This document shows, piece after piece, positions 2,386 to 6,230 of a DNA stretch of 21,886 bases. The translations under genes and the position numbers were made by a program. The notes beneath the pieces were generated by a model. The model did not search any database. It had not been told where the DNA came from and saw only the letters and a list, made by a program, of their open reading frames with translations. This stretch comes from a virus, in the IMG/VR virus record IMGVR_UViG_3300036398_001269, positions 1 to 21,886 of that record. One strand, 5' to 3'. The first letter of the stretch is position 1, and the number at the start of each line of letters is the position of its first letter.

Positions 2386-3279
2386 TTAAAAGGGTAAATC
2401 AAAATTAGTATTTCTTTTTATTTCGTGTTTTTGTTGCAACGGGTTAACGCCACCTATCGTAAAACCTTTACCGAAATTATAATCAAATAAAAGTGGTTGG
2501 TTTAACTCAGTTTGTTGTCCCCCAGTGTCACGGTCTTTAATTTTCTCAACATCTATCATTGTAAAATATTTCATTGATTCGTGTTTTACAAGTCTGTGGA
2601 TTACAAGCATATCGTCGCAACGATTTAAAAACGGTTTACCGCCTTCAATATGCGCTTTCAATGGTGGTTTAAGGTGTCCGTTCCAAACGTGGTCTTGAGG
2701 GTATAGCATCGAAGTTCGTCCACTTTCGCTTGTTGGGTGTGTTGAAATGTACAAAGTCTTATTTGTACGGTTGCAGAAATCTCTTGTCGTGTTTAAGAAC
2801 TCGTAATTGTCGCTGTGTTGCATACCTCGATTTAATCCAGTGAACGGGTCAATAAAAGCAACGTCGCATTCTTGAGTTTCAATAATCTTTAACATCTCTT
2901 GAGGTGTGTACATTTGTTCGTTGCTTACAAATTTAAACCATTGCTCAATAATCTTGTTATAAGTTAGTATTTCGTCTTTTGAAAGGTCGCTAAATTTATT
3001 ACCTGAATACATTTGAATTAAGTCCCTCATCACTTGACCGCTTGAGTTTTCACCCATCCACAAAACGAACTTCAAATTGTGTTTAACAGCCAAACAAAGA
3101 AAGTACCACAGCATAAAATAAGATTTACCGACGTTGTCGTGTCCAAGAACTATGTTTAGTTGCTTTCGCTTGAAACGAATATAATCGTCTAAAACGCACC
3201 CTATACCAAGACCCATCGAAATTTTACCGTCTTTGTAATCGAGTAGGTAGTTTGTGCTATGTCCGTCGTTTAAAATCAT
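2386..3279 (-). CDS. RecA/DnaB-fold replicative ATPase (helicase candidate)
   Basis: The protein is 297 aa, a single RecA-like domain. Walker A is GHDNVGKS at residues 46-53, a likely catalytic Glu lies in WMGENSS (74-80), and Walker B is CDVAFIDPF (138-146) with D144. A following strand ISTHPTSE (178-185) resembles the sensor region of DnaB/RepA-type hexameric helicases. It lacks the N-terminal primase-binding domain of full DnaB, so it is closer to RepA-like or phage DnaB-like C-terminal ATPases. It overlaps the initiator-like gene by 4 bases, the classic initiator/helicase pairing of phages. Helicase activity is inferred from fold and context. Confidence 0.82.
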   Translation of the reverse strand: MILNDGHSTNYLLDYKDGKISMGLGIGCVLDDYIRFKRKQLNIVLGHDNVGKSYFMLWYFLCLAVKHNLKFVLWMGENSSGQVMRDLIQMYSGNKFSDLSKDEILTYNKIIEQWFKFVSNEQMYTPQEMLKIIETQECDVAFIDPFTGLNRGMQHSDNYEFLNTTRDFCNRTNKTLYISTHPTSESGRTSMLYPQDHVWNGHLKPPLKAHIEGGKPFLNRCDDMLVIHRLVKHESMKYFTMIDVEKIKDRDTGGQQTELNQPLLFDYNFGKGFTIGGVNPLQQKHEIKRNTNFDLPF

Positions 3280-3851
3280 TTGTAAGCGTTTACTTGTTTC
3301 ATTACATTTTCGTAGAAAAGCTGGTCATTCGACTTTTGTTGTTTAGTAAGTTCTAAAGAACTTTTTTCCCACGTCCTTACACACGCTTTCCAATCCTTCA
3401 TTTTATTCTTACCAACTAACCAACCGTTGCTTGTATAGTAGTTAACAAACTTTTCAGCATCAACACCCTTCCCACGTTCTAAACAATAATTACTAACTTC
3501 TTGCAAAGAAGGTATTATAAACCTCTTATTTACATTAACATTATCATTTACATTTACATTAACATTTACATTGCCTTCTATTTTGCTTTCAACTTGCTTG
3601 TCTTTTGCTTCTGTTTTGCTTTCAACTTGCTTCAATTTAGGTTTTTTTCCGTTATGGTATTTCTTTACGTTTGCATCGATTTGAGGTTTAATCAAAGTGA
3701 ATAAAGATTTAGCCATTGCATCCGTAAAAGTAGGTTCTTTAAAATCCAAACCATAAATAAAAATAGCATCGTAAACCTGTGCTTTTGTTGTTTCTGTCAT
3801 TCCGTCTAAACTTTCGTAAAAGCTACGGTAAAAAATCATTGAATCTCGCAT
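3276..3851 (-). CDS. Replication initiator or helicase-loader candidate with DUF6291-like N-terminus
   Basis: The protein is 191 aa. Residues 1-65 (MIFYRSFYESLDGM, VYDAIFIYGLDF, LIKPQIDANVKKY) look like the DUF6291/DnaD-associated helical domain seen in phage replication proteins. A low-complexity linker (about 70-108) follows, with two KQVESK units and an Asn-Val repeat. The C-terminal 80 residues (PSLQEVSNYCLERG to WKACVRTWEKS) resemble the DnaD-like tail of replisome organisers. The gene is 4 bases from the ATPase gene, so the pair probably recruits the helicase to the origin. The linker DNA consists of hexanucleotide repeats and could be part of the origin. Confidence 0.7.
   Translation of the reverse strand: MRDSMIFYRSFYESLDGMTETTKAQVYDAIFIYGLDFKEPTFTDAMAKSLFTLIKPQIDANVKKYHNGKKPKLKQVESKTEAKDKQVESKIEGNVNVNVNVNDNVNVNKRFIIPSLQEVSNYCLERGKGVDAEKFVNYYTSNGWLVGKNKMKDWKACVRTWEKSSLELTKQQKSNDQLFYENVMKQVNAYK
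3529..3570. repeat. Hexanucleotide repeat array inside the initiator-like gene
   Basis: Seven consecutive 6-base units of the pattern TTTACA, TTAACA or TTATCA (plus strand) encode an Asn-Val repeat in the protein linker. The tract is very A/T-rich and flanked by a further AT-rich stretch. It may be simple slippage in a linker, or iteron-like sites of a replication origin placed in the initiator gene, as in lambda O. Confidence 0.85.
3581..3632. repeat. 19-bp direct repeat in the initiator linker
   Basis: The 19-base sequence ttttgctttcaacttgctt occurs at 3581-3599 and again at 3614-3632, a period of 33 bases (11 codons). It encodes the repeated KQVESK peptide of the linker. It lies next to the hexanucleotide array. 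Confidence 0.9.
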
Positions 3852-3985
3852 TTTTTTAATTTTAGTGCAACAAAAAACCCGACCATTTTACTCGCGGGTC
3901 TCACTTCGCTTTCAAATAATCGGGTAATAACTTCTTTTAAGTTCTATATTGTGAGACCGAACCTACTAAATAATAGTATAAAAAG
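3852..3985 (-). promoter_or_regulatory. Structured leader, attenuator-like, before the initiator/ATPase genes
   Basis: This 134-base gap carries competing pairings. GGTCTCAC/GTGAGACC is a perfect 8-bp stem (plus 3897-3904 with 3951-3958). AGACCCG/CGGGTTT is a terminator stem followed by T6 on the minus strand (plus 3895-3901 with 3875-3881). ACCCGA/TCGGGT is a 6-bp stem (plus 3920-3925 with 3877-3882). The first and second share bases 3897-3901, and the second and third share 3877-3881, so they exclude each other as in an antiterminator/terminator switch. A small inverted repeat, TACTA-TTATT-TAGTA, lies at 3964-3978. No coding frame is visible. Confidence 0.6.
3872..3901 (-). terminator. Terminator hairpin within the leader
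   Basis: On the minus strand the arm AGACCCG, a 13-base loop and CGGGTTT lead directly into a T6 run. The stem has one G-U pair. It lies 21 bases before the initiator-like start, where a constitutive terminator would shut off the replication pair. Conditional formation is therefore more likely. Confidence 0.6.
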
Positions 3986-4231
3986 TTAAAGTGTTTTTTT
4001 TCTATCGCAATATTTTTGCCATTCATCCATAGTCCACACTTCAAAGACTAATTTTGGATGAAGGTCTAACCGTTTAATAGCGTCTTCTTTAGAGTATGCT
4101 TGGACAATAAAGTAATCAACTTTGTTTTCAATCCAAGTGTAAACCCTAAACGGACGCTTAAAAGGGTACGTCAAACACGCTTTCTTCTTTCTTGAAAGGT
4201 TCGGATAGTTTAGCACTAAAGAATTTTCCAT
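3986..4231 (-). CDS. Small hypothetical phage protein, start uncertain (up to 81 aa)
   Basis: The recognisable part is RPFRVYTWIENKVDYFIVQAYSKEDAIKRL onward (from about residue 26), an alpha/beta pattern seen in small early phage proteins. The ATG at 4231 gives a 74-base overlap with the preceding gene in another frame, and its first 19 residues look like out-of-frame translation. A TTG start at 4174 would cut the overlap to 17 bases and is preferred by the protein pattern. The stop is followed by the structured leader. Function is unknown. Confidence 0.55.
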   Translation of the reverse strand: MENSLVLNYPNLSRKKKACLTYPFKRPFRVYTWIENKVDYFIVQAYSKEDAIKRLDLHPKLVFEVWTMDEWQKYCDRKKTL

Positions 4232-5813: not shown

Positions 5814-6230
5814 TTAGATTTGTGCTAATTTAAGTAATTTACTAATTCGATTTTCCAAAAGGACTAAATTTTTTAACTCGTTTACGTTAATATCGTCTAC
5901 TGGCTTAATGTGGCAACGTGATTTTTCTTTTATTAACTCAATGTTTTCTTTTATTTCTTGGTATCCGTAACCCTCGTAAGTTGTTAAGACTTGTTTTATA
6001 GCGTGGATTACCGTTGAGTGGTCTCTACCGAAGTCTTTACCAGCATCTTGTAAGCATTTTCCACTCATCCAGTTCCACACCATACCGATATTTCTCCAAA
6101 TTACTACTTCTTGTTTTCGTGTTTTTAATAGTTCACCTTCGAAAATGTAAGGACAAGCTTCGTAAAAGTCGACCATTTCAAAAGACGATACTTCAATAAT
6201 CTTTGCTATCTTACCTCGTTTGTATTTCAT
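5814..6230 (-). CDS. Stand-alone DnaA domain IV-like DNA-binding protein
   Basis: The protein is 138 aa. Residues about 37-82 match the helix-turn-helix of DnaA domain IV: TRKQEVVIWRNIGMVW, then AGKDFGRDHSTVIHAIKQ with the RDHSTV signature at 69-74. That signature reads DnaA boxes in DnaA itself. The AAA+ domain is absent, so it cannot work as an ATP-driven initiator alone. It opens the replication/recombination block and could bind the phage origin, compete with host DnaA or regulate transcription. The start at 6230 lies inside the 45-aa gene. Remaining residues are helical without known motifs. Confidence 0.8.
   Translation of the reverse strand: MKYKRGKIAKIIEVSSFEMVDFYEACPYIFEGELLKTRKQEVVIWRNIGMVWNWMSGKCLQDAGKDFGRDHSTVIHAIKQVLTTYEGYGYQEIKENIELIKEKSRCHIKPVDDINVNELKNLVLLENRISKLLKLAQI

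Follow-up and report, generated by a model that had tools for sequence, protein, structure and literature searches.

A conserved leader RNA with a kissing-loop terminator ahead of replication-initiator operons in phages of Flavobacteria and their relatives

The window, meaning the whole stretch of DNA that was analysed (21,886 bases), is a virus record, IMGVR_UViG_3300036398_001269, in which a gap of 134 bases on the minus strand separates a small ORF (3986-4231) from a putative replication initiator (3276-3851). The gene order on this strand is the small ORF, the gap with the RNA element described here, the initiator and then a helicase-type ATPase (Table 1), and relatives of the initiator in phage records are labelled as replication or replication initiation proteins. 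A stand-alone protein resembling DnaA domain IV (PF08299) is also encoded in the window (5814-6230), and in about half of the loci a related gene is the immediate upstream neighbour of the element. Short tandem repeats with periods of 6, 12, and 18 (ATTTACATTAAC on the plus strand) are present inside the initiator gene (3528-3572), where they encode NVNVNVN, and mid-gene low-complexity stretches recur in several relatives; these repeats and stretches could be iterons of an in-gene origin.

Table 1. Coordinates of the genes and RNA parts in the window, with copies of a variant element in other loci.
Feature	Position	Strand	Basis or remark
Helicase-type ATPase	2386-3279	minus	PHROG DNA primase/helicase and DnaB-like families
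Putative replication initiator (DUF6291, PF19808)	3276-3851	minus	domain match and annotation of relatives
Whole RNA element, ~92-94 nt, P1 to end of U-run	3872-3965	minus	covariance model R1 and helices in 97 relatives
U-run, first U closes P2	3872-3877	minus	sequence; U at 93-100% in these columns of relatives
P2 terminator stem, 3' arm	3877-3888	minus	MFE; covariation
P3, 3' arm CGC	3894-3896	minus	MFE; covariation
Kissing arm b GUGAGACC, P3 loop	3897-3904	minus	covariation; unpaired in MFE fold
P3, 5' arm GCG	3907-3909	minus	MFE; covariation
P2 terminator stem, 5' arm ACCCGAUUAUUU	3914-3925	minus	MFE; covariation
Single-stranded P1-P2 linker, A/U-rich	3926-3937	minus	letters partly kept in main sequence family, not in distant isolates
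P1 hairpin, 3' arm GAACUUA	3938-3944	minus	MFE fold; covariation
Kissing arm a GGUCUCAC, P1 loop	3951-3958	minus	97.5% of cells paired with arm b
P1 hairpin, 5' arm UAGGUUC (consensus 5 bp = 3959-3963)	3959-3965	minus	MFE fold; covariation
Promoter region, variant form TATACTATTATTTAGTA	3966-3990	minus	inferred; common to close relatives; window without TAnnTTTG
Upstream small ORF	3986-4231	minus	ORF list; not translated from the element's own transcript
Mini-kiss copies	L175:3959-4042, L213:4299-4382, L186:21-103 (minus), L099:1681-1761, L101:1979-2060

The minimum free energy (MFE) fold of the core (3965-3873) consists of P1 (3959-3965/3938-3944), P2 (3914-3925/3877-3888), and P3 (3907-3909/3894-3896) at -23.7 kcal/mol, with both arms of an 8-bp stem (3951-3958/3897-3904) unpaired in the loops of P1 and P3. 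A separate folding likewise contained this P2 and P3. An earlier note on this DNA had described three mutually exclusive hairpins in the gap. The first of them, the 8-bp stem, is present, perfect, and strongly covarying, but its arms are the loops of two hairpins and do not make a nested long-range hairpin (-17.8 kcal/mol when forced as one). The second (3895-3901/3875-3881) is possible on paper, but imposing it raises the energy by 6.6 kcal/mol (from -23.7 to -17.1), and no trace of it emerged when 97 relatives were scanned for covariation; the third (3920-3925/3877-3882) is present as the lower part of a terminator stem that is 12 bp long in all (3914-3925/3877-3888) and runs into U3877-3872. 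The claim of exclusivity fails, since the first and third stems share no bases and fit one fold and no competing helix covaries. Two of the checks that the note had proposed bear it out in part: minus-strand folding returns the terminator stem and U-run in the MFE structure but neither a nested 8-bp stem nor exclusivity, and the arms of the 8-bp stem and of the third stem covary in the 97 relatives, but those of the second do not. The terminator, which the note placed 21 bases before the initiator start, is indeed close to it, with 20 bases measured from the U-run to the start codon (3871-3852). The folding energy by itself is unremarkable (z -1.0, 34 of 200 shuffles being equally good), and it is the comparative evidence, not this energy, that marks the element as more than chance.

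Relatives of the initiator and ATPase were taken from IMG/VR, and a covariance model (R1) was made from 36 aligned members with the structure supplied by the analyst. This model matches the window at 3873-3965 with 79.3 bits (E 4.8e-14), a score that is not independent because the window itself belongs to the 36-member seed, and the model finds one strong copy per locus. The element accompanies 44 of 52 ATPase loci at E values up to 0.5, and 43 at 0.002 or better; six of the eight loci without a model match have at most ~1 kb of upstream sequence, and two ATPase relatives with enough upstream sequence (L110 and L131) gave no match. In an alignment of 100 loci (97 distinct, Neff ~45), which was fitted to P1, P2, and P3 and favours those helices, the kissing helix not being in the model, 98.3% of cells are paired over 27 pairs and two-sided changes occur in 24 of the 27 among the 97 relatives. 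These changes are found in 5/5 consensus pairs of P1 (99.0% of cells paired), 9/10 of P2 (98.8%), 4/4 of P3 (97.7%), and 6/8 pairs of the kissing helix (97.5%). The covariation score is 0.812, against 0.208 +/- 0.008 when shuffled and 0.067-0.100 when slid. A structure-free mutual-information scan of the same relatives has its top 20 pairs all in the four helices, and the remaining pairs are weaker and mostly neighbours of these helices, with no other or competing helix. Pairs of G-U outnumber A-C by 174 to 7 overall and by 146 to 0 in P2, an excess which indicates that the functional molecule is the RNA of this strand and disfavours a DNA-level function such as an origin hairpin or cruciform. 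Judged by these comparisons, the site is a genuine structured RNA, in which P1 and the terminator hairpin (P2 with P3 on top) form together and their loops are joined by the kissing helix.

A sequence pattern that fixed only the unpaired and internal-loop letters, a few flanking bases, and the T-run, and contained neither the kissing helix nor P3 except for a fixed GT opening the P3-loop arm, was found in at least 120 viral stretches. In all 120 of the viral matches listed, P3 has 3-4 of its 4 pairs, and the P3 loop pairs with an upstream arm at 7-8 of 8 positions (8 in 115 of the 120), in a test that picks the best upstream match and has a background of 6-7 of 8 pairs, as seen in 18 bacterial and archaeal matches. 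Those 18 were all that the pattern retrieved from 84,980 bacterial and archaeal species genomes, and none of them combined the 8-bp kiss with P3, so that the search revealed no prophage copy of this subtype; an ATPase search of bacterial and archaeal genomes likewise gave no relative. A nucleotide search of annotated phages returned nothing because the sequence diverges too fast. Many of the IMG/VR relatives retain the leader, which is ~85% identical in L133 and L121-L123, though their ATPases share only 51-70%.

Four initiators served as references for the genes that follow the element. Among 91 elements with at least 1.5 kb of downstream sequence, a homologue of one of the four lies downstream of 80; the distance is at most 350 nt in 78 cases, and 1.6 and 2.3 kb in the other two. 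The other 11, read by eye, comprise nine with other initiator-like genes followed by an ATPase, one with a ParB-like gene, and one with a likely primase gene, so that the element precedes a replication-initiator operon in about 89 of 91 loci, nine of these by the analyst's judgement. The downstream initiators are non-homologous, the next gene is always on the strand of the element in the loci examined, and the upstream genes are diverse, forming 27 clusters, the largest of which (57/112) is the DnaA domain IV-like protein. The association thus tracks the downstream gene, as is expected of a cis-acting leader, and the relatives uphold the earlier description of a conserved leader with a terminator just ahead of the initiator and ATPase. 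In locus L086 the initiator gene is 95% identical to that of the window and the element is different; in L133 the element is nearly identical to that of the window (3872-3965) and the initiator is different. Specific recognition of the element by the initiator protein is disfavoured by these mismatches. Sequence comparison indicates that the element and the downstream gene recombine independently.

The Bacteroidota promoter motif TAnnTTTG ends 1-5 nt before the model in 81 of 97 relatives, compared with 3.1% of random windows. The TAnnTTTG box of F. psychrophilum lies at -12 to -5 (PMC9723704), which would place the RNA start within 1-2 bases of P1 in most relatives, and the U-run is predicted from the sequence to end the RNA. 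The window and its near relatives carry in the promoter position a variant, non-consensus box, TATACTATTATTTAGTA, which another sigma factor or a phage factor may recognise. The same element occurs in L104/L106 and L107/L108, but TATATTTG of L107/L108 is replaced by CTTAATAGTATAC in L104/L106, possibly through a promoter swap. The stop codon of the small ORF precedes the inferred RNA start, so this ORF would lie outside the element transcript. Control through translation of the preceding small gene, which the earlier note had entertained, accordingly finds no support, since the promoter of the element would start the RNA past the stop of that gene and no leader peptide is conserved. Leader-peptide attenuation was likewise rejected, as the ATGAA of the main subtype has no consistent stop and is absent from the element of the window, and no ORF is conserved. 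An ATG lies ~20 bases past the U-run in most loci, and TAnnTTTG is found within 40 nt past the U-run in only 2 of 99 loci; with hardly any promoter between the terminator and the next gene, the operon must depend on read-through or on transcription that begins further upstream. An intrinsic terminator stands between the promoter box and the initiator, which is the general arrangement of an attenuator as far as sequence evidence goes.

The same layout can be traced in isolated phages. A scanner for architecture (P1, a 7-nt kiss, P3, P2, and the T-run), which uses no sequence letters, gave exactly one match in each of the Flavobacterium phages 11b, lillamy9-1, FCL-2, and elemoD, each with TAnnTTTG and located either at the initiator or a single small ORF upstream of it. 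No match was found in the Riemerella phages PT03 and PJA1, in phi40:1 (49 kb of 72.5 kb scanned), or in B124-14. The limits of the scanner were set with the isolate leaders already in view, so the independent part of this result is the single match per genome together with the shuffles, which gave 1.5 architecture matches per 430 kb of shuffled sequence and none with a promoter. In phages phi13:2 and phi19:3 this layout is also recognisable by eye, but their P1 is shorter and escaped the scanner. The purine-rich arm comes first instead of second in elemo, lillamy, and possibly 11b; across these comparisons topology is conserved and sequence is not, even as to which kissing arm is purine-rich. 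A mini-kiss variant has 6-nt loops that pair completely (Table 1); L175 carries it twice, at 1591-1681 ahead of a small ORF and again directly before the initiator.

None of the 4227 families of Rfam 15 matches the window or 11 relatives at gathering thresholds, the guanidine-II riboswitch model included, which agrees with the earlier remark that no named riboswitch class could be recognised; when the window, L148, and phage 11b were scanned permissively, all Rfam matches fell below gathering. No description of the element was found in the open-access literature. Several known systems share part of its design. In plasmid rep leaders of the IncI-alpha, IncB, and IncL type, a loop pseudoknot promotes translation and an antisense RNA blocks the pseudoknot; these too are replication-initiator leaders with pairing between a hairpin loop and a segment further downstream, but the partner loop of the element sits on the terminator and no antisense RNA is known for it. 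The rep attenuators of pT181 and pIP501 similarly place transcription attenuation ahead of a replication initiator, with an antisense RNA governing the choice between a pre-emptor and a terminator fold, whereas no alternative fold covaries in the element. The guanidine-II (mini-ykkC) riboswitch, with a fixed loop motif and a ligand, also has two leader hairpins with kissing loops, but its kissing partner is not a terminator hairpin, unlike that of the element. The put elements of HK022, structured RNAs at the start of early phage transcripts that govern termination, suppress downstream terminators, whereas the element ends in its own. In the HMP-PP (thiS) riboswitch the aptamer is embedded in the terminator (PMC6478431), and the likeness lies in a structured leader part, with a pseudoknot, inside an intrinsic terminator hairpin. 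The ON fold and the terminator of that riboswitch exclude each other, its loop is a conserved ligand pocket, and thiamin-pathway genes lie downstream, whereas all four helices of the element are compatible, its isolates share no conserved pocket, and it stands before replication initiators. The element thus resembles terminator-embedded riboswitches (PMC6478431) and plasmid rep leaders in logic and departs from each in the defining features that were compared.

We consider it moderately probable that the element is a promoter-linked, cis-acting transcription attenuator of the phage replication operon, with the kissing terminator as its OFF state. Host RNA polymerase would start at a promoter overlapping the end of the upstream gene, and P1 would be made first; as the terminator hairpin emerges, the loop on P3 would kiss the P1 loop and P2 would close, and the U-run would by default release a compact RNA of ~92 nt. 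Read-through would lead to the initiator and ATPase, for which no separate promoter is visible. This reading builds on what the comparison of relatives demonstrates: the functional molecule is RNA of this strand, it has four helices and the shape of a terminator, most relatives carry the promoter box, and the element is associated with initiator operons. From these features we infer that the element terminates efficiently and that regulated read-through, through a phage or host factor or through folding kinetics, times replication. No alternative ON structure is visible among the 97 relatives, and with no competing helix a switch would act on the folding kinetics, on the kiss, or via an antitermination factor. 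Against the attenuator reading, a plain leaky terminator would look alike and the promoter of the window lacks the consensus box; transcription from further upstream could also supply the read-through product.

A possible but rather unlikely alternative is that the element is a small RNA gene in its own right, located in the replication module, whose product acts in trans on some host or phage target, read-through into the initiator being incidental. The folded unit spans the inferred RNA from its 5' to its 3' end and has its own promoter and terminator, and the linker, partly conserved in the main family, is a possible binding site; however, the association is with a class of downstream genes and not with upstream neighbours, the unpaired letters are not kept in distant isolates, and the element always precedes a same-strand gene in the loci examined. 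It is improbable that the element is a constitutive leaky terminator, which would give constant low initiator transcription or insulate the operon with no switching: the lack of a competing helix and the strong terminator hairpins (mean -15.3 kcal/mol in 97 relatives) suit it well, but it needs neither P1 nor the 8-bp kiss, both of which are kept by compensatory change over large divergence. A small-molecule riboswitch with an aptamer embedded in the terminator is very improbable, for although the main sequence family has conserved unpaired letters and such aptamers exist (the HMP-PP riboswitch, PMC6478431), the isolates share the topology and not the unpaired bases, which weakens the ligand switch of the earlier note, the mini-kiss variant lacks the P1 loop bases, and no Rfam family matches at gathering thresholds.

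As an extension of the attenuator reading, one that we regard as decidedly doubtful, the terminated RNA may also be a trans-acting counter, whose loops at high genome copy would kiss nascent leaders, disturb the cis kiss, and change termination; if true, this would be a self-specific feedback of each phage on its own replication. In many phages of Flavobacteria and related bacteria, among them isolates that have long been in public databases, the replication-initiator operon begins with an RNA of conserved shape. In a phylum whose transcription and translation signals are unusual, this RNA offers a concrete, testable point of control over phage replication, and the element probably decides whether the replication genes are read.
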